The translations under genes were made by a program, and so were the position numbers. Positions 13,138 to 27,066 of a stretch of 42,786 bases of DNA are shown here, piece by piece. Origin of the DNA: a virus; IMG/VR virus record IMGVR_UViG_3300032285_001822, positions 1 to 42,786 of that record; one strand, 5' to 3'. Under the pieces are notes generated by a model. That model saw only the letters and a list, made by a program, of their open reading frames with translations, was not told the DNA's origin and did not search any database. The number at the start of each line of letters is the position of its first letter. Within the stretch, counting starts at the first letter, position 1.

Positions 13138-13851
13138 ATGACACTTTTTCAACAAGTCCCATCGCTATCGCGTGTGATGTCAACCGATGCGAACAAAGAG
13201 CTTGACGCGCTCAGTGCGTCCATAGTCGCTTTCTTAACCGCGGAAAGCGGTCTGGAATCACGCGTGCAACGACTTAACGCATTAAGGCGGCTCATAGCGC
13301 AACATTCGCCATTCGCCAACGAACCCGTCGATCTTGTGGAGTGGGTGGCGTCCGACGCAGTCCACGCGAACGACTACAACCCAAACAGCGTTGCCCCGCC
13401 AGAGATGGAGCTGTTGCGGCTATCTATCGCCGCTGACGGCTACACACAACCCATCGTAACGATGGATGAAGGGGAAACGCGTGAGGTGATCGACGGGTTT
13501 CACCGCAACAGGGTGGGCAAGGAATGCGCCGACGTGCGCGACCGCGTCAAAGGATTTTTGCCCGTAGTCACGATTCGTGAGGACCGGGCCGACAAATCAG
13601 ATCGCATCGCAGCCACAATCCGCCACAACCGAGCCCGCGGAAAACATCAAGTGATCGCCATGTCCGACATTGTGATTGACCTAGCCCGCCGCAACTGGTC
13701 CGACTCAAAGATCAGCCGCGAACTTGGCATGGACGAAGACGAAGTGCTACGCCTCAAGCAAATCACCGGCCTCGCAGAAGCGTTTGCCGACCGCGAGTTC
13801 TCAGAAGCTTGGGAAGCCGTCCTTGATGTAGAGGACGACCGTGTTCAATAA
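13138..13851 (+). CDS. ParB-like (IbrB-type) protein
   Basis: The 237-residue protein has a ParB/sulfiredoxin-like core: AVHANDYNPNSVAPPEMELLRLSIAADGYTQPIVT and the box VIDGFHRNRVG (about 118-127). It is followed by a helix-turn-helix (KISRELGMDEDEVLRLKQITG, about 190-210). In the IbrA/IbrB pair such a protein accompanies a PAPS-reductase-family enzyme, and the same pairing is seen here with the gene at 14287. ParB-like cores can bind or hydrolyse nucleotides. ATG at 13138 was chosen; 13177 is a possible later start. Confidence 0.72.
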   Translation: MTLFQQVPSLSRVMSTDANKELDALSASIVAFLTAESGLESRVQRLNALRRLIAQHSPFANEPVDLVEWVASDAVHANDYNPNSVAPPEMELLRLSIAADGYTQPIVTMDEGETREVIDGFHRNRVGKECADVRDRVKGFLPVVTIREDRADKSDRIAATIRHNRARGKHQVIAMSDIVIDLARRNWSDSKISRELGMDEDEVLRLKQITGLAEAFADREFSEAWEAVLDVEDDRVQ

Positions 13852-14287
13852 AAACGGAATCACCGACACCAACATTACCCCGGTCAGATTCCACCATCCG
13901 TGGCATGAACTTGAGGAATACCAGCCCGATGGCGGCATGTGGAGCATTCCCCGCGCCGCAGACCGCGAACAATTTATCGCCGCGTCCGCTGACCTCATGG
14001 CGGAACCGCAAAAGTTCCTGACGGCAATGTTGCGCGCCCTGGACGAGTGGCCCAAATCGTGCGACGTGGCATTCACCACCCCCGGGCTCAACTGCAAAGC
14101 GTGGATGGGACACGCAGGCTGCTACCTCGCAACAGGATCACCCGAAGAAACCACCCGTATCGGATGGCACCGTCTTGACGCCGCAGAGCAGTACGCCGCA
14201 AACGACGCCGCAGACCAAGCCATCTGCACCTGGGCTCAACGCCGAAACCAAGAACAACAGCAACTCAGCCTATTTTGGGGATTCTGA
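13841..14287 (+). CDS. conserved small protein of the ParB-PAPS reductase cassette
   Basis: The 148-residue protein (GTG at 13841) lies between the ParB-like and PAPS-reductase-like genes, overlapping one by 11 bases and the other by one. Its sequence includes HHPWHELEEYQPDGGMWSIP, CDVAFTTPGLNCKAWMGHAGCYLATGSPEETTRIGWH. Conserved-looking Cys, His and Trp residues suggest a folded domain with possible metal binding. I recognise the pattern as a phage protein but know no function. Constant location between the two would suggest a three-part complex. Confidence 0.65.
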   Translation: MFNKNGITDTNITPVRFHHPWHELEEYQPDGGMWSIPRAADREQFIAASADLMAEPQKFLTAMLRALDEWPKSCDVAFTTPGLNCKAWMGHAGCYLATGSPEETTRIGWHRLDAAEQYAANDAADQAICTWAQRRNQEQQQLSLFWGF

Positions 14288-15579
14288 TGCCAAAAACACC
14301 GTTAGGAATGGACGTACTGACCGCCGCCCGCCAACGAGTCCAATGGACGTTTGACAACTTCGAACGCGTCTACGTGTCCTACTCGGCCGGAAAAGACTCC
14401 ACCGTAATGCTGTACCTCGTTGAAGAAGAAGCACGGAAACGCAACCGCCGCTTCGGTGTTCTCCTGGTCGATTTGGAAGGCCAGTACCAATGCACCATTG
14501 ACCACGCGGAACAACAGCTTGCCCGCATCGCAGACATCACCGATCAATACTGGGTGTGCTTGCCCATCGCACTTCGCAACGCGGTATCGGTGTACCAACC
14601 CAAGTGGCAGTGCTGGGAACCCGGCAAGGAAGACGCCTGGATCAGGCCGATGCCGAACCGGCACGTCATCAGCGATGAAAACTTTTTCCCGTTTTTCAGC
14701 CGCGACATGGAGTTTGAGGAGTTCGTTCCCGAGTTCGGTGAATGGTATTCCCAAGGGGAACGAACCGCTTGCCTCGTAGGTATCCGCTCCGACGAATCCC
14801 TGAACCGGTTCCGCACCATCGCATCAACGACCAAAGTCACTTTAGACGGGAAGCAATACACCAGCCTCGTCACCGACCACGTCTACAACGTCTACCCCAT
14901 CTACGACTGGCGCACTCAAGACATTTGGACATACCACGCCCACAACAAAAACTTGCCCTACAACCACCTGTACGACCTTATGGGCATGGCCGGACTATCC
15001 ATCCACCACATGCGCATCTGCCAACCCTACGGAGATGACCAACGCCGCGGCCTGTGGCTGTTTCACCTCATCGAACCCGAAACATGGGCACGCGTCGTGG
15101 CACGCGTCAACGGAGCCAACAGCGGCGCTCTATACGTCCAAGAGTGGGGAAACATCAACGGCTACCGGCGCATCACAAAACCCGAGGGCCACACCTGGGA
15201 ATCATTCGCCAAACTTCTCATCGAATCCATGCCGCCGCAGATGACTCAGCACTACGCCGACAAAGTTCTCCTATTTCAACGCTGGTGGATGAACCGCGGC
15301 TACCCCGATGGAATCCCCGATGAAGCGCCCTACGCCCTTGAAGCCAAACGCCTAGCCCCGTCGTGGAGACGCGTATGCAAGTCCCTACTTCGCAACGACT
15401 ATTGGTGCAAAGGATTGGGATTCAGTCAACACAAATCCGCCGCTTACACCAAATATCAAGAAATGATGCGCCGCCGACGCGGCTCCTGGGGTGTCACAGA
15501 CGGATCAATTGCAGCCACCGAACAAATGTTAGACCCCGGTCAGGGTGAGTTGTTTGTCCTTGAACAAGAGGTGTGCTGA
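14287..15579 (+). CDS. PAPS reductase/IbrA-like ATP pyrophosphatase-family protein
   Basis: The 430-residue protein carries the PP-loop SAGKDST (residues 33-39) of the adenine-nucleotide alpha-hydrolase fold. It is followed by a long domain like DUF3440/IbrA (RNAVSVYQPKWQCWEPGKEDAW, then YPIYDWRTQDIWTY...HMRICQPYGDDQRRGL). These proteins activate substrates with ATP and may transfer sulphur, as in DndC, though the substrate in phages is unknown. Gene order ParB-like, small protein, PAPS reductase-like makes a self-contained cassette. The ATG at 14287 overlaps the previous stop; a TTG at 14275 is less likely. Confidence 0.8.
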   Translation: MPKTPLGMDVLTAARQRVQWTFDNFERVYVSYSAGKDSTVMLYLVEEEARKRNRRFGVLLVDLEGQYQCTIDHAEQQLARIADITDQYWVCLPIALRNAVSVYQPKWQCWEPGKEDAWIRPMPNRHVISDENFFPFFSRDMEFEEFVPEFGEWYSQGERTACLVGIRSDESLNRFRTIASTTKVTLDGKQYTSLVTDHVYNVYPIYDWRTQDIWTYHAHNKNLPYNHLYDLMGMAGLSIHHMRICQPYGDDQRRGLWLFHLIEPETWARVVARVNGANSGALYVQEWGNINGYRRITKPEGHTWESFAKLLIESMPPQMTQHYADKVLLFQRWWMNRGYPDGIPDEAPYALEAKRLAPSWRRVCKSLLRNDYWCKGLGFSQHKSAAYTKYQEMMRRRRGSWGVTDGSIAATEQMLDPGQGELFVLEQEVC

Positions 15580-19962: not shown

Positions 19963-20199
19963 ATGGCTGACAGCAAACCCCAAAACCGGGTTGAACTCCA
20001 CGAACAGCGTCTAGAAAGTTTGCTGGACGCGTTTTGGGGTTTGGCGTTGGAGGGTGATCACAAGTCGGGGGAGTTGTGCCGACGGTTGTTGCAGCAGCAG
20101 GCCGATCTGTTTGGGCTTGCCGCGTTGATCGCTGCGCCGTCCGCTGATGAAGGTGACGATGAACTCGCCAAGCTCCGCGCTCGCCGCACCTCCGCGTAA
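19963..20199 (+). CDS. terminase small subunit-like protein
   Basis: The 78-residue helical protein (RVELHEQRLESLLDAFWGLALEGDHKSGELCRRLLQQQADLFGLAAL) lies directly before and overlapping the large terminase by 41 bases. Short helical proteins at this location bind DNA ends and form the small subunit ring. There is no clear helix-turn-helix, so it rests on context and a similar pattern in other actinophages. Confidence 0.6.
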   Translation: MADSKPQNRVELHEQRLESLLDAFWGLALEGDHKSGELCRRLLQQQADLFGLAALIAAPSADEGDDELAKLRARRTSA

Positions 20200-21643
20200 G
20201 GGCTCAACAGAACCCCGTATTTTCACGCCGCCGTTGAAGGATTTGACGGCGGAAACGTCCTGGGGTTTTGACTGCATCGACTTCCTTGAGAAGGTGTTGG
20301 GTTGGGAGCTGTTGCCGTGGCAGCGGTGGCTGTATATCCATGCCCTAGAAAAGAGCCCCAATAATCCTGACGGGTATCGCTACTCCACCATCGTGTGTCT
20401 AGTCGCTAGACAGTCCGGAAAGACTCAGTGGCTGAAGGGCTTGGGGTTGTGGCGGTTGTATGTGGACGGCGCCAAGCAAGTGCTGATCTCGGCGCAGAAC
20501 CTTGAGTTCGCGGAGAACACGTTGACCCAGGCGGTTGACGAGGTGAAGAACAACGCTCTTCTCAATAGCGAATTTGAAAAGTTTTCGCAGACGAATGGCA
20601 AGTTCCGGCTGGTGTTGTCGGGTGGCCGGGAGTGGCGTGCGGCGGTTTCGACTCGCCGCGGTGGGCGTTCGTTGTCGGTGGACTTGGCTCTGCTCGATGA
20701 GTTGCGTGAGCATCAGAATTGGGAGGCGTGGAACGCTATCGTCCCGACGACGACAGCGCGGCCCCGGTCCCTTGTGGTGTGTACGTCTAACGCGGGTGAT
20801 GCCACGTCGGTGGTGTTGAGGTCGTTACGTGACGGGGCGTTGCAGAAGATCACGACCCGGGCGACGGCGGATACGAAGACCGGTTTGTTTGAGTGGTCTG
20901 CCCCCGATGATGCTGACCCGCTGGACCCTGAGTCGTGGGCTTTGGCGAACCCGGGCATGGGTTATCTGTTTGAAGCTGAGAGCATGGTCGGTCGCGCGGA
21001 GGCGATGAGCGACAACATTGCCGGGTTCAAAACGGAGCATTTGTGTCAGTGGGTGGACGCTCTTGATCCGGGCATCATTCCCCCGGAGCATTGGGCGGCG
21101 ACGACTGATGCGGAGTCTAAGCGTGCCGATGGCGCCCAGGTGTGGGCGTCGGTGGATGTGAACTTTCAGCGGACGAAAGCGTATGTGGCGATTGCGTCCC
21201 GCCGTGATGACGACAAACTTCATATTGAGGTTGTGGCTGCGGAGCGCGGCACGGAGTGGATTGTTCCGTGGTTGTCTGAACGTAAGGATCGGTTCGCTGG
21301 GGTTGTTGTTCAGGCCCGCGGCGCCCCAGCGTCGGGGTTGATTGAGCCTTTGCGTGAAGCGGGTGTTGAGGTGTTGGAGCTGGGGGGCTCTGATCTTACT
21401 AAGGCGTACGGCTACATGTTCGACATGATTTCCGAGCACAAGGTTGGGCATCGGCCGTCGCCGGTTTTGGATGCTGCGGCCGAAGCTGCCAAGGCCAAGA
21501 TTTTGGGCGACTCTTGGGTCATTGACCGGAAGAACTCCACCGTGGATTCGTCACCTTTGGTGGCGTGTTTCCAGGCGGCGTGGGGTGAACAGCTCCACGA
21601 CCAGATCAGCGTGTATGCATCTGAGGACGTGTTGATCCTTTAG
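20159..21643 (+). CDS. terL: terminase large subunit
   Basis: The 494-residue protein has the packaging ATPase motifs: Walker A VARQSGKT (residues 82-89), Walker B LALLDE (Asp180-Glu181) and the coupling motif VVCTSNAG (about 206-213). The C-terminal nuclease domain starts with an acidic residue in SVDVNF (Asp333). It cuts concatemeric DNA and drives it into the prohead. ATG at 20159 follows GAAGGTGAC; an ATG four codons earlier is also possible. The gene ends four bases into the converging gene at 21640. Confidence 0.95.
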   Translation: MNSPSSALAAPPRKGSTEPRIFTPPLKDLTAETSWGFDCIDFLEKVLGWELLPWQRWLYIHALEKSPNNPDGYRYSTIVCLVARQSGKTQWLKGLGLWRLYVDGAKQVLISAQNLEFAENTLTQAVDEVKNNALLNSEFEKFSQTNGKFRLVLSGGREWRAAVSTRRGGRSLSVDLALLDELREHQNWEAWNAIVPTTTARPRSLVVCTSNAGDATSVVLRSLRDGALQKITTRATADTKTGLFEWSAPDDADPLDPESWALANPGMGYLFEAESMVGRAEAMSDNIAGFKTEHLCQWVDALDPGIIPPEHWAATTDAESKRADGAQVWASVDVNFQRTKAYVAIASRRDDDKLHIEVVAAERGTEWIVPWLSERKDRFAGVVVQARGAPASGLIEPLREAGVEVLELGGSDLTKAYGYMFDMISEHKVGHRPSPVLDAAAEAAKAKILGDSWVIDRKNSTVDSSPLVACFQAAWGEQLHDQISVYASEDVLIL

Positions 21644-21852
21644 CTCAGTTCGATGTTGCCGTCTACCCACGCTTGAAGCAAAGTTCTGAGTGCTTCGGAA
21701 ACGGTGGTCTGGTCTTCCTCTGCTCGGCGCAATGCCGCGCCCCAGAGATCATCTGAGACGCGAACATTACGAAGCGTGGTGCCCCTAGACACGTGCCGCT
21801 CTAGCTTGACGGTGTTCCTGTGCCAGTTGAGACTGATAAGACCAGGTTTCAT
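21640..21852 (-). CDS. ribbon-helix-helix DNA-binding protein
   Basis: The 70-residue protein (ATG at 21852) ends with TLRNVRVSDDLWGAALRRAEEDQTTVSEALRTLLQAWVDG. This is a ribbon-helix-helix (CopG/Arc-type) fold: a short strand with alternating residues, then two helices. Such proteins bind DNA as dimers and usually regulate their own operon. Two matching operator-like repeats lie at the promoter at 22461-22502. Longer forms starting at up to 21939 are possible. Last gene of the minus-strand cassette. Confidence 0.72.
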   Translation of the reverse strand: MKPGLISLNWHRNTVKLERHVSRGTTLRNVRVSDDLWGAALRRAEEDQTTVSEALRTLLQAWVDGNIELS

Positions 21853-22063
21853 GCTGACGCTCTTTAGTAAGCGACCAAGAACCGATCTGCTCAGAAGTGC
21901 AACCATACCCAGCCGTGACACCGTATAGGACACCGCCATCGGACGATTGCGCTGAGTAGTCGTTGCACAGGGACGCGAGGATGGCGGGTGCCGATTCAGT
22001 TGAGCATCTTCGAGATGTGACGAAGTAGCCGTCTACCGAGAAGTTTAGGTACATGGTGGTCAC
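21785..22063 (-). CDS. small hypothetical protein of the minus-strand cassette
   Basis: The 92-residue protein (GTG at 22063 or ATG at 22054) overlaps the preceding minus-strand gene by four bases, and runs 68 bases into the RHH gene in another frame. The first two thirds (MYLNFSVDGYFVTSRRCSTESAPAILASLCNDYSAQSSDGGVLYGVTAGYGCTSEQIG) look like a small folded domain. The end is Gln/Arg/Ala-rich and may just be the overlap. No family is recognised. Confidence 0.5.
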   Translation of the reverse strand: MTTMYLNFSVDGYFVTSRRCSTESAPAILASLCNDYSAQSSDGGVLYGVTAGYGCTSEQIGSWSLTKERQHETWSYQSQLAQEHRQARAARV

Positions 22064-22284
22064 TTTCCTTCGTTTATGTGAATGGCGACTGCGGCTTTAG
22101 CTTCGGCCAAAGTCCGGTAGTAGCCACCAATAATGGCGTATCCGGGTGCCCCGCTGGGCTGGTTGTGCAGATGTTTACGAACCCCAAAACCGTGGCGCGG
22201 GCCATGGTTGGTGATTGAGTAGTCGCCGCAGCGGTAGAACCCGCGCTCTGGTGATTCCCAAGTAAGTGTTGTCATGGTGGTCAC
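22060..22284 (-). CDS. small hypothetical protein of the minus-strand cassette
   Basis: The 74-residue protein (GTG at 22284, or ATG at 22275) reads TLTWESPERGFYRCGDYSITNHGPRHGFGVRKHLHN...AGYY RTLAEAKAAVAIH-type pattern, with strands followed by a helix. It resembles small one-domain proteins that keep one substrate-like surface, but no known family is clear. It overlaps both neighbours by four bases, showing an operon on the minus strand. Confidence 0.6.
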   Translation of the reverse strand: MTTMTTLTWESPERGFYRCGDYSITNHGPRHGFGVRKHLHNQPSGAPGYAIIGGYYRTLAEAKAAVAIHINEGK

Positions 22285-22442
22285 TCGGTTTCGGTTGCGA
22301 CGAAGATTCCCAGGCCCAGATCGGCGATGACCCCGAGCACTGAATCAACGAGGGTTGTCTTGCCCAGAGCTAAGTGCAGCTTGGTCAGCATGTTGTCTGA
22401 CTCGTCTGCGGTGAGCGGTCGGGTGGTGTAGGTGGTGGTCAT
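22281..22442 (-). CDS. first gene of the minus-strand cassette, small helical protein
   Basis: The 53-residue protein starts at the ATG at 22442, preceded on its strand by AAAGGAAACCAAC. It is helical and mostly acidic (TADESDNMLTKLHLALGKTTLVDSVLGVIADLGLGIFVATE). An upstream in-frame start at 22505 would run through the promoter and operators and was not chosen. Function unknown. Confidence 0.65.
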   Translation of the reverse strand: MTTTYTTRPLTADESDNMLTKLHLALGKTTLVDSVLGVIADLGLGIFVATETE

Positions 22443-22460
22443 GTTGGTTTCCTTTGCGTT

Positions 22461-22502
22461 GGTGTAACCACACTCTAACACGGTGTACCCACACCCTGTC
22501 AA
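22461..22502 (-). promoter_or_regulatory. promoter with twin operators for the minus-strand cassette
   Basis: On the minus strand a perfect -35 TTGACA lies at 22502-22497. Two 13-base repeats, GTGTGGGTACACC (22494-22482) and GTGTGGTTACACC (22473-22461), are spaced 21 bases apart, i.e. two helical turns, with the probable -10 (TAGAGT or GTTAGA, about 22479-22472) between them. The first repeat contains the dyad GTGT-N4-ACAC. The arrangement suits two RHH dimers blocking polymerase. Confidence 0.75.
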
Positions 22503-22537
22503 CATATTTTCAAAACTATTTTTAGAAGGGCGGTGAC

Positions 22538-22768
22538 ATGCGCCGACAAAGACTGATCAAGCAGGCAATTCGGCAGCGTTTCGCCGTCACCTTGAAGAAC
22601 AACGAGGGCATCTTCGCGGGTGTCTTGACCGAAACGGACCCCACGACGTGGGTGTTTGAGCAGTGTTCGACTGTCCCGAAACAGCCCGGAGAAACCCCAG
22701 AGCCGATCAGTGGCCGCGTGTTTGTTGACCGCCGCCAGGTCGCGTACCTTCAGGAGTTGCCGGAGTGA
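22538..22768 (+). CDS. small conserved head-region protein
   Basis: The 76-residue protein sits between the terminase and portal genes, with AAGGGCGGTGAC before the ATG. It has a pattern of strands (RFAVTLKNNEGIFAGVLTETDPTTWVFEQ...GRVFVDRRQVAYLQ) like an SH3/Sm-type fold. Such small proteins precede the portal in many actinophages; a role in packaging or assembly is possible but not known. Its last codons overlap the portal start. Confidence 0.7.
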   Translation: MRRQRLIKQAIRQRFAVTLKNNEGIFAGVLTETDPTTWVFEQCSTVPKQPGETPEPISGRVFVDRRQVAYLQELPE

Positions 22769-24168
22769 TCCTTTCTAATGGGACGCAGCGCGTGTTAGCG
22801 CCGCAAGCGTTCGCCGAACTATCACCGCAGTTCTACAACTCGTACTTCGTGCCGCGAACCGGCCTTGACCTTGAAACGACGTTCGCCACGTACGCGGAGC
22901 TGTATCGGCGCCAGCCGTGGGTGAACACGGTGGTCAACAAAATCTCCAACCTCATTGCCCGGTTGGGGTTGCAGGTGTGGGATATGTCGTCCCCGTCTGG
23001 GAAGATGCTGGACACGTCCGGCCCTTACGCGAAGCTGATTGCCAAGCCGTCGCCATACATGGATTCCCATTCGTTCTGGCAGTGGGTTGCCGCGACGATT
23101 GAAATCTTCGGTGAGACGTTCCTGATCAAGATTCGGGAGAACGGCCGTGTGGTGGGGTTCGCCCCGATGCATCCCGCTCAGACAAAAATCCACCGCAACC
23201 AAGACGGCACCCTGACCTACCAGTTCCTGGGGCATCCCAATCAGGAGTTCCACCAAGACGACATCGTCCCGTTCCGCAGCTTCGATCCGTTCGGCGCGAT
23301 GCGTGGCATGTCCCGGCTGGAGCCGTTGCGGTCGACGCTGATGAGTGAGGACTCGGCACGCCGCGCGACGGCGTCGTGGTGGCGGAACATGGGCCGTCCG
23401 AGCATGGTGTTGCAGACCGAGAAGAAACTGGGCGCCGAGGGCCGTGCCCGGGTGCAGGATGCTTTCCGCGCTGTGGCTGGTGGCTCGTCAAATGCTGGCG
23501 GCATCATCGTCCTTGAGGACGATCTGAAAGCAACTTCGATGCAGTTGTCTGCCGAGGAGATGCAGTACATCGAATCGCGGAAACTGAACCGCGAAGAGGT
23601 GTGCGCCGTGTATGACATTCCCCCGGCTGCGGTGCATGTCCACGATCACTCCACGTACAGCAACGTGACCGAAATGATGCGCAGCGTCTACCGCGACTCA
23701 ATGGCTCCGCGTATCGCCTTCATCGAATCGGTGTTGGACTGGTATGTGGGTGGGGATTTCGCTGGTGAGCGTGTGGCCCGTTTCGCTGTTGCCGAGGTGT
23801 TGCGCGGTGACTTTGAAGCCCGCGCTGAAGCGATGGCGTCCTTGGTTCAGGCTGGTATTGCTAAACCGTCCGAGGCGCGTCCGTTCTTCGACTTTGATGA
23901 CGCTGGTCCGGTTGCCGACAGGCTGTATGCGAACTCTGCAATTCAGCCCTTGGGCGCCGAGAAGCCCACTCCCGAACCTCCAGCCCTCAACAACGAACCC
24001 AGCAATGTGGTTCCTTTCCCTGCCGCTAAGTATGTGCGGGATATCGGTGGCCTGATCGGCCGCGGTAAGTCAATTCAAGAGGCAGCGGCAACCCTTCTGG
24101 ACAAACACCCCGCCGATAGGGATGCCATCCGTGAGGCGTGCGAACAAATTATTGAAAGGCAAATCTGA
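22765..24168 (+). CDS. portal protein, HK97 family
   Basis: The 467-residue protein (GTG at 22765) has typical portal regions: YRRQPWVNTVVNKISNLIARLGLQVWD near the N-terminus, HPAQTKIHRNQDGTLTYQFLG and DDIVPFRSFDPFGAMRGMSRLEPLRSTL in the middle, and SRKLNREEVCAVYDIPPAAVHV later. It forms the ring at the special vertex through which DNA passes, and binds terminase and the connector. The C-terminus is Pro/Glu-rich. It shares one base with the protease start. Confidence 0.93.
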   Translation: MILSNGTQRVLAPQAFAELSPQFYNSYFVPRTGLDLETTFATYAELYRRQPWVNTVVNKISNLIARLGLQVWDMSSPSGKMLDTSGPYAKLIAKPSPYMDSHSFWQWVAATIEIFGETFLIKIRENGRVVGFAPMHPAQTKIHRNQDGTLTYQFLGHPNQEFHQDDIVPFRSFDPFGAMRGMSRLEPLRSTLMSEDSARRATASWWRNMGRPSMVLQTEKKLGAEGRARVQDAFRAVAGGSSNAGGIIVLEDDLKATSMQLSAEEMQYIESRKLNREEVCAVYDIPPAAVHVHDHSTYSNVTEMMRSVYRDSMAPRIAFIESVLDWYVGGDFAGERVARFAVAEVLRGDFEARAEAMASLVQAGIAKPSEARPFFDFDDAGPVADRLYANSAIQPLGAEKPTPEPPALNNEPSNVVPFPAAKYVRDIGGLIGRGKSIQEAAATLLDKHPADRDAIREACEQIIERQI

Positions 24169-25109: not shown

Positions 25110-26516
25110 ATGAGCACAAAGGAAGGCTTGCGTCAGCAGGCCACCGAACTGGCGAACGAGGTCAAGGCCAAGTCCGCCGCATTCGAGAAGGGTGAGATCA
25201 GCCCCGCTGAGTTCTCCACCTTCATGGACACCGCTGAGTCGAAGAACACCGAGATCGGTTCCTCGCTGAAGGCGTACGACCGCGCTGCACGTCTGTCCGG
25301 CGCCGCCGACATGGCCCCGATGGTTTCGGAGCCCGTTGCCGACACCCACAGTGTCGTCAAGGATGCGTTCGACCGCATCAAGTCCGCTGCCGCTTCCCGC
25401 GGCCGGGAGTCGGTCGGTTTTGAGCTGGGCTTCAAAGCCCAGGGCGTGACCGGTCTGATGGGTGATGCTGCTTCTGGCACCACCGCCCCGTCTGCTCTGT
25501 CGGGTTACTTCTTGGGCGGCGCTGCCGGTCCCGCGGTCACCCCGGAGTTCATCCCCGGAATCACTGAGCTTCGGTTCTACCCGAACCAGATCGCTCAGTT
25601 GTTCCCGAACCTGCCGGTGTCCTCACCTGTGGTCACCTACGTCCGTGAGGCTTCGTGGACGAACAACGCCGCAGGCGTCAAGGAAGGTGAAACCAAGCCC
25701 ACGTCGACCAACAGCCTGACCCGGTACACCGAGCAGGTCGGTAAGGTCGCGGCACTGGCTCGGGTCACCGACGAGCTGATCGCCGACGCCCCGTACTTCT
25801 GGTCGTTGATTCAGACCCGTCTGGCTCAGGGTGTTATCCGTAAGGAAGAGGTCGAACTCCTCGCTGGTTCCGGCGCTCCCGGTGCCAATGGTCTGCTCAA
25901 CCGGACCACTGGTTTCACCAAGCCGCAGACCATCACCGCTGTGTCCAACCTCGTCATCCCGGCTTCGGGTACGGCAGGTTTGGGTGCTGGCACCAACACG
26001 GTCAGCTCGGTCACCCCGGGCCGCGCCGTTGTCGGCACCGGCACCTCCGGCACCGCACCGACCGGTGTTCAGATCGCGGAGGGAATCCTCGCCGCCATCA
26101 CCGACATCCGCACGCTCACCTTCTTTGAGCCGGATGCCATCGTGATGAACCCCAGCGATTTCCTCACCGTTCGTCAGTCCAAGGACTCGGCCGGTCAGTA
26201 CCTGGGTGGCTCGTTCTTCGGCTACAACTACGGCGGCGCCCAGAGTGTCACCGCGGATGTCCTCGATCCGGGCATCACCCTGTGGGGCAAGCGCGTCGTT
26301 TCCACCCCGGCCATCCCGGCCGGTTACATCCTCGTCGGTGACTTCGCCGAGGGTGGACAGGTGCTTCGCCTCGGTGGCCTGCAGGTCAACGTAGCCAACA
26401 CAAACGGCTACGATTTTGAGCAAAACCTGTGGACTGCAAGGGCAGAAGAAAGAGTCGGACTGCTGGTAGAGCGTCCGGAACTTTTCGAACTGATCGTTCT
26501 CCAGAACAAGCCGTAG
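25110..26516 (+). CDS. major capsid protein, HK97 fold
   Basis: The 468-residue protein begins with a coiled delta-domain (KEGLRQQATELANEVKAKSAAFEKGEISPAEF, about 4-60). A linker with PMVSEPVAD follows, then the HK97 body (FIPGITELRFYPNQIAQLFPNLPVSSPVVTYVREAS, KVAALARVTDELIADAPYFWSLIQTRL, and ALRLGGLQVNVANTNGYDFEQN-type region). The likely cleavage point is around residues 100-120. AAAGGACG precedes the ATG. It makes the icosahedral shell. Confidence 0.95.
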   Translation: MSTKEGLRQQATELANEVKAKSAAFEKGEISPAEFSTFMDTAESKNTEIGSSLKAYDRAARLSGAADMAPMVSEPVADTHSVVKDAFDRIKSAAASRGRESVGFELGFKAQGVTGLMGDAASGTTAPSALSGYFLGGAAGPAVTPEFIPGITELRFYPNQIAQLFPNLPVSSPVVTYVREASWTNNAAGVKEGETKPTSTNSLTRYTEQVGKVAALARVTDELIADAPYFWSLIQTRLAQGVIRKEEVELLAGSGAPGANGLLNRTTGFTKPQTITAVSNLVIPASGTAGLGAGTNTVSSVTPGRAVVGTGTSGTAPTGVQIAEGILAAITDIRTLTFFEPDAIVMNPSDFLTVRQSKDSAGQYLGGSFFGYNYGGAQSVTADVLDPGITLWGKRVVSTPAIPAGYILVGDFAEGGQVLRLGGLQVNVANTNGYDFEQNLWTARAEERVGLLVERPELFELIVLQNKP

Positions 26517-26544: not shown

Positions 26545-27066
26545 ATGGATGAGCTGCGGCGCTGTCACAAATGTGAACTGCAAAGTCCTGTCACTGAGTT
26601 TCGCAAGAGCAAAAGTGGTCGGCCGTGGAACACATGCAAGGCATGCGCCGCAGCTCATCTACGGGCATGGCGTGAGAAGAACCAAGAGCATGTTGAAGCC
26701 TACGAACGTGAATACAGGAAACGTCCCGAACGTATTGAAAAGCATCGGCAGCGTAGTCGGCAGCGGTATCACGCCAGCCCAGAAGTGTTCCGAGATAAGT
26801 ACCTTCAGCGAACTTTTGGTATATCGCTTGACGATTACAACAGCCTGCTGGAGCTCCAGGGTGGCGTGTGCGCGATCTGTAATCAGACGTGTAAGAGCGG
26901 ACGTGATCTTGCGGTTGATCACGATCATCAGACCGGTCAGGTTCGTGCCCTGTTGTGCATGAATTGCAATCGGGCTATCGGTTGGTTGCAGGACAAGCCG
27001 GAACTTCTCATGTCTGCTACTGAGTATCTGCTTCGTTTCCGTAATGTGTTGAAAGGACTTGGCTAA
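26545..27066 (+). CDS. free-standing endonuclease VII/HNH-type nuclease
   Basis: The 173-residue protein has an N-terminal zinc knuckle (CHKC, CKAC; Cys7, 10, 31, 34), a long basic helix (residues 40-90), and an endonuclease VII domain: FGISLDDYNSLLELQGGVCAICN, VDHDHQTG (residues 124-131), ALLCMNCN (Cys138, Cys141) and RAIGWLQDKPELL. It lies between the capsid and connector genes, where no structural role is needed. This is the pattern of a mobile homing-type nuclease inserted into the late operon. Resolution of Holliday junctions before packaging is the other possibility. Confidence 0.85.
   Translation: MDELRRCHKCELQSPVTEFRKSKSGRPWNTCKACAAAHLRAWREKNQEHVEAYEREYRKRPERIEKHRQRSRQRYHASPEVFRDKYLQRTFGISLDDYNSLLELQGGVCAICNQTCKSGRDLAVDHDHQTGQVRALLCMNCNRAIGWLQDKPELLMSATEYLLRFRNVLKGLG

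Follow-up and report, generated by a model that had tools for sequence, protein, structure and literature searches.

An actinophage genome of 42,786 bp (hereafter the window, covering positions 1 to 42,786 of the viral record IMGVR_UViG_3300032285_001822) carries between terL and the portal gene a cassette of four small leftward genes, in which three cargo genes (orfA, orfB and orfC) are followed by a gene for a ribbon-helix-helix (RHH) protein. The cassette is best explained as an acquired unit run by its own autorepressor in the manner of acr-aca operons, with cargo that is likeliest directed against host defence, a reading to which we give a probability of about 0.55. The nearest annotated terL relatives of this phage are those of Mycobacterium and Gordonia phages, at no more than 59% identity.

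The insertion between terL and the portal gene

In the window, terL, a 76-aa gene and the portal gene all run rightward, whereas the four genes between them, encoding 53, 71, 89 and 50 aa, run leftward on the minus strand from 22442 to 21640 (Table 1). The initial annotation had described a four-gene minus-strand cassette at this place, with a promoter and twin operators of its own and a RHH protein as the last product; all of these elements are present, and the limits of the cassette could be refined. The junction TGACCACCATG is repeated in front of the starts of orfB and orfC. For the RHH gene, the most probable start is GTG 21792 rather than 21939 or 21849, as it gives an exact parallel to the 50-aa gene of a 43.9-kb relative (L009). 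With the start at 21792 the RHH gene shares 8 nt with the end of orfC, and its stop overlaps that of terL by 4 nt. The coding bias is clear in orfA and weak in orfB and orfC, whose own frame nonetheless scores best among all six, and GC3 is 0.54–0.59 in orfB and orfC versus 0.71–0.75 in core genes, as is expected for recently acquired genes.

Table 1. Features of the cassette and its flanks in the window, and genes abutting the RHH gene in other phages
Feature	Position or locus	Strand	Description	Evidence
terL	20147–21643	+	left flank of insertion	phrog_9, E 4.6e-76
RHH gene	21640–21792	-	50 aa, GTG start; Arc-like candidate autorepressor	
orfC	21785–22054	-	89 aa, cargo; ATG 22054	
orfB	22060–22275	-	71 aa, cargo; ATG 22275	
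orfA	22281–22442	-	53 aa, cargo	
Operator 2 (putative)	22462–22473		palindrome GTGTGGTTACAC (minus-strand reading); over -10 and probable start site	
-10 box (predicted)	22472–22477	-	TAGAGT (TAnnGT)	spacer 19 nt
Operator 1 (putative)	22483–22494		palindrome GTGTGGGTACAC (minus-strand reading); inside -35/-10 spacer	
-35 box (predicted)	22497–22502	-	TTGACA	sequence
Possible UP element	22503–22527	-	AT-rich; upstream of -35	
76-aa gene	22538–22768	+	right flank of insertion; function not assigned	phrog_6750
Portal protein	22765–24168	+		PF04860, E 1.6e-69
C5-type methyltransferase abutting RHH	L069, L071, L073, L182			Pfam
N6/N4-type methyltransferase abutting RHH	L064, L172, L189			Pfam
SNF2/helicase type abutting RHH	L062, L187			Pfam
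Similar abutting genes	L074, L089, L194			by sequence only

The initial annotation had also taken the block for a moron, and comparison of related phages between terL and the portal gene favours this over a fixed part of the late operon. In five close relatives (L005, L006, L007, L008 and L011), which are 78–85% identical to the window in terL and 70–97% in the portal gene, the block is absent, and 26–40 nt separate terL from the 76-aa gene, which is conserved at these empty sites. In contrast, L009 has about 870 nt with leftward genes at the same site. Its RHH protein is 70% identical to that of the window over 50 aa, and here too the stops of the RHH gene and terL overlap. The promoter with its twin operators occurs there in two copies, the first unit ends in a strong terminator-like hairpin, GC-rich and 12 bp long, with a T-run (z -3.8), and the cargo, of 77 and 74 aa, is unrelated to that of the window. 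Between these two genomes, as judged by sequence comparison, the switch and the promoter are kept while the cargo is swapped. Since five close relatives lack the block, which the window and L009 carry at a fixed site, we regard the cassette as a moron, and it is very probably an autorepressed one. As to a promoter of its own, the predicted one is kept in L009 and in unrelated phages; as to a terminator of its own, no leftward terminator-like site was listed inside the window cassette. A DNA search of phages with the whole cassette gave no match. The idea that the gap between terL and the portal gene is otherwise always empty had to be given up, as two more distant phages have other long insertions with minus-strand ORFs in it (L141:3641-6044 and L156:1887-2856). 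Because of these insertions the junction seems to be a tolerated insertion site.

The position of the cassette could also mean that it controls the late operon, with leftward transcription or RHH binding governing terL and the portal gene by convergence or by a block to rightward transcription. The overlap of the RHH and terL stops in both genomes would suit such a role, as would the convergence of the module with large genes elsewhere. However, the late operon is the same in the five close relatives, which have no cassette, and the convergent gene differs in other phages, so this role is improbable.

The RHH protein and the putative twin operators

The 50-aa protein matches phrog_6506, annotated as ‘Arc-like repressor’, with an E value of 1.7e-8. 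Its AF2 model, built from an alignment of 16 relatives, has a RHH fold (pLDDT 91.8), in which an extended N-terminus is followed by helices at residues 14–26 and 31–43 and 7 residues remain after helix 2; this is the strand with two helices in about 45–50 residues that is typical of RHH proteins (Arc/MetJ). The best Foldseek matches of the model are the RHH domains of Arc and PutA (TM 0.6–0.7), with E values above 0.5 as expected at 50 residues, and a profile search against solved structures returned AvtR (3e-5), SeqA, RHH antitoxins, omega and ParG. Moreover, P22 Arc (immI region), which gave phrog_6506 its name and ranks among the structures nearest to the model, is likewise a small stand-alone phage RHH repressor. 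It controls the ant region and is not known to travel with exchangeable cargo.

The two GTGTNNNNACAC palindromes that we take for putative operators are spaced 21 bp apart and are the only such sites in the 42.8-kb window, where 0.91 single sites would be expected; none of 1500 Markov-simulated windows contained such a pair. Among all 12-mer palindromes with 4-base arms in the window, they form the only pair with identical arms 19–23 nt apart (0.017 expected). The predicted promoter around them is not optimal, having a long spacer of 19 nt and a TAnnGT -10 box, and it was not listed by a generic sigma-70 scanner because this accepts spacers of 16–18 nt only. Upstream of the -35 box the stretch 22503-22530 has 25% GC versus 59.5% in the genome, and an AT-rich stretch of like kind lies behind both promoters of L009. 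Since the operators lie within the core promoter, repression of its own promoter by the RHH protein is the simplest reading, and this protein, which co-occurs with twin palindromes across loci, is most likely the repressor of its own cassette promoter as far as the sequences tell. The possibility that the palindromes are stoperator-like sites of a phage-wide immunity repressor was rejected, for the window has a single pair, and the record of each relative has one or two.

Distribution of the module in other phages

The linkage between the operators and the RHH family was examined by scanning viral contigs with the operator pair alone as query, without any protein information. This gave 23 non-redundant groups, the contig of L009 itself being left out, and in 9 of them a member of the RHH family is encoded within 1 kb downstream in the sense of the operator, whereas only 42 of 20000 random control positions (0.2%) have a RHH in the same proximity. 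With the TTGAC pattern added to the operators, 32 promoters were found, and 20 of them, including those in the actinobacterial genomes of Luteimicrobium and Acrocarpospora, have a RHH gene 28–735 nt downstream on the same strand; in 125 control loci (1.17 Mb) there are two RHHs of the same type. Among the 12 promoter matches without a downstream RHH, two have the RHH gene in divergent orientation at a distance of about 220 nt, some are chance matches in non-actinobacteria and some lie at contig ends. In each of the 18 distinct promoters linked to a RHH, the -10 box is TAnnGT and keeps one register relative to operator 2, with spacers of 17–19 nt; the last two bases of this box belong to the operator, and its TA was not imposed by the search. 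Furthermore, 17 RHH-linked promoters besides that of the window have TTGAC(A/G/T), placed as far from the operators as it is there. The operator pair by itself is thus a predictor, at the level of sequence, of a RHH protein nearby. Searches of whole records found one copy of the twin operator per phage and two in L009, which suggests that the RHH protein would act locally.

The same layout is kept in related RHHs with variant operators. L003 and L004 have the variant operator CTGTAAGTACAG twice, 22 apart, and in the reverse direction a scan with the RHH alignment recovered further family members, of which the closest (L191, L192 and L193) have, like L213, operator pairs of the CTGTAGGTACAG type 20–22 bp apart. 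More distant members of the family often have no such pair, and this type of operator therefore characterises only some of its members. In addition, at four loci (L065, L175, L067 and L077) the promoter and twin operator precede genes of other kinds (79 aa; about 240 aa) with no RHH nearby, possibly under a second type of regulator or a distant RHH.

Each unit consists of the promoter with its operators, 0–3 small ORFs that differ by locus, and a RHH gene for 40–60 aa, which usually overlaps or abuts its upstream gene. In about a dozen phages a gene for a DNA methyltransferase or helicase-methylase lies tail to tail with the RHH gene (Table 1), at distances from a 66-nt overlap to a 162-nt gap; the window cassette itself has no adjoining methyltransferase gene. 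Because the modules elsewhere adjoin other genes, the terL site of the window and L009 is one of several positions. The gene tail to tail with the RHH module at L189:249-4709 encodes a 1486-aa SNF2/N6-N4 methylase polyprotein that matches Hint and LAGLIDADG models and so likely contains inteins.

The RHH family also includes Arc-like repressors of the Gordonia phages Phistory (gp44), Hedwig (gp36) and BritBrat (gp32) and of the Mycobacterium phages Majeke (gp56) and Philonius (gp56), all annotated as single genes, unlike the RHH gene of the window cassette. In Philonius, gp56 and a gene for a DNA methyltransferase overlap tail to tail, and gp27 of Rhodococcus phage Mbo4, of the same family, follows a methyltransferase gene. 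In Phistory (L170, NC_048040, 2345-2482), five GTGTGGGNNCA sites, which closely resemble operator 1 in the window, lie upstream of gp44. The strict twin operator (19–24 nt) was not found in the named Gordonia and Mycobacterium phages, which have looser palindromes only.

A type II toxin-antitoxin module with a RHH antitoxin, which the initial annotation had offered among its examples, is very improbable in view of this architecture. It is true that RHH folds are common among antitoxins, that autoregulation through an operator pair is typical of such modules, and that the RHH protein weakly matches RelB/DinJ in NCBIfam, well short of the cut-off (E 0.005). However, in almost every unit the RHH is bare (43–60 aa) and has no C-terminal toxin-binding tail, and the near lack of sequence beyond helix 2 disfavours an antitoxin role. 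Moreover, the RHH gene is the last one of the operon, its partners are non-homologous between loci and vary from 0 to 3, in L181 the RHH stands alone behind the promoter, and no recognisable toxin family was matched.

Cargo, mode of action and known systems

The products of orfA, orfB and orfC had no match in Pfam, NCBIfam or PADLOC and only non-significant ones in PHROG. No relatives of orfB and orfC were found in the annotated phage collection or the viral contigs, nor any of orfA in the family libraries and the DNA search of the cassette. The orfB product is predicted from its single sequence to fold as beta-beta-beta-beta-alpha (pLDDT 80), and Foldseek gave no meaningful match for this model (best E 0.4, TM below 0.45). 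None of the known Acr, anti-restriction, defence or toxin families matched the cargo. Cargo of this kind, very small, different between loci and outside known families, fits counter-defence but is no proof of it. The same holds for the abutting genes, as phage methyltransferases are often anti-restriction genes; together with the tiny, fast-changing cargo they fit such a role without proving it, and we assign it to the cargo tentatively, at slightly less than even odds.

We propose that the host-type promoter, which we take to be strong and perhaps helped by the UP element, would fire when the operators are unoccupied, for example on naked phage DNA entering a cell, and would yield the three small cargo proteins and then, from the last gene of the operon, the RHH protein, whose translation is probably coupled to that of orfC. 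Dimers of the RHH protein would bind both palindromes, which lie two helical turns from each other in the -35/-10 spacer and over the -10 box and start site, and would shut the promoter. The outcome would be a burst of expression followed by a low, self-set level, a timing that we consider probable. The self-shut-off would also limit leftward transcription running head-on into terL during late expression. With exchangeable cargo on a kept switch and promoter, the cassette would act like an acr-aca operon.

In acr-aca operons (Aca1-10; PMC9410906), small non-conserved cargo genes come first and the autoregulator last behind one promoter with one or two inverted repeats within its core, the regulator is kept while the cargo is swapped, the genes are accessory ones on phages, and expression comes as a burst and is then shut off through helix-turn-helix (HTH) regulators. 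The window cassette shares the upstream small cargo, the last place of the regulator and the inverted repeats inside the core promoter, but its regulator is a RHH and not a HTH protein, no cargo matches a known Acr, and it runs against the late genes. The known phage-encoded Aca families are HTH proteins, not RHH (PMC9410906, PMC8708921). We avoid the name acr-aca operon for the cassette, because it lacks a HTH regulator of the Aca family and the activity of its cargo is one that we only infer; it would be an acr-aca-like or zygotically expressed cassette under RHH control. A RHH repressor with operator-flanked promoters and several cargo genes is also found in the Reg(p576)/EGeRS2 system of clade II pLS20-family plasmids, for which RHH-controlled transient expression on DNA entry has been proposed, phage-encoded repressors of this kind being HTH proteins (PMC8708921). 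The likeness is one of layout and logic: the operators there lie on one or both sides of the promoters, and unlike the window cassette the system is a dispersed regulon with several promoters, on conjugative plasmids of Bacillota. Archaeal viruses have early anti-defence regulons (PMC11065993) in which, as in the present module, small genes that are diverse and mostly unique stand behind a conserved strong promoter or regulatory sequence, and the class is identified by its promoter rather than by a protein; unlike the window cassette, these regulons have archaeal promoters and dispersed single genes, with the wHTH protein Aca8 as the proposed regulator.

The moron could instead serve lysogenic conversion, as suggested in the initial annotation, being expressed from the prophage at a steady level set by the RHH protein and protecting the lysogen by superinfection exclusion or anti-phage defence. 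Lysogeny is plausible since the window phage carries a tyrosine integrase, the leftward unit could be expressed without late activation, and the modules of L191 and L193 have an integrase gene close by, as read from the sequence. Prophage-expressed defence genes are moreover documented in actinophages, those of Gordonia phage CarolAnn being an example of lysogenic defence or exclusion (PMC6426606). On the other hand, negative autoregulation over the core promoter would give low steady expression, the very small cargo matched no PADLOC model, and the linkage is to methyltransferase genes and not to immunity repressors. We rate transient, self-limited expression of counter-defence genes as more likely than superinfection exclusion or defence, which is the main alternative but rather unlikely.

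No description of a phage module with a RHH and twin operators was found in the open-licence papers searched. It may be that the RHH with its twin operators is the RHH counterpart of aca and marks a large undescribed set of counter-defence genes in actinophages, be they anti-restriction, anti-CRISPR or other ones, an extension that we hold with more reserve than the assignment for the window cargo. If so, scans for operator-embedded promoters would reveal counter-defence genes by guilt by association, for which there is a precedent in the regulatory-sequence-guided discovery of anti-defence genes in archaeal viruses (PMC11065993). Actinophages have hundreds of tiny genes without known role, and few tools single out the host-directed ones. 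The signature of TTGAC, GTGTN4ACAC and TAnnGT fused to a second GTGTN4ACAC would predict an autorepressor and mark exchangeable cargo, and so provide a candidate list. In the genetics of mycobacteria and Gordonia the module would also be of use as an expression switch that limits itself, and its natural variation (GTGT..ACAC, CTGTA..TACAG) would let the operator specificity of RHH proteins be read.

Some other genes of the window were also observed. The gene at 13138-13851 reads as ParB-like, with no Pfam match, and one gene after it lies a PAPS-reductase/DUF3440 gene at 14275-15579 (PF11922, E 2.5e-33; PF01507, E 2.9e-13); the two may form an IbrB/IbrA-like pair in an actinophage. A recombination endonuclease VII-type gene at 26545-27066 (PF02945, E 1.6e-24) comes immediately behind the gene that reads as major capsid (25110-26516) and is likely a homing-type insertion. 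Near the start of the window, a gene for a papain-family cysteine protease (1080-1730, PF00112) adjoins genes that read as lysins.
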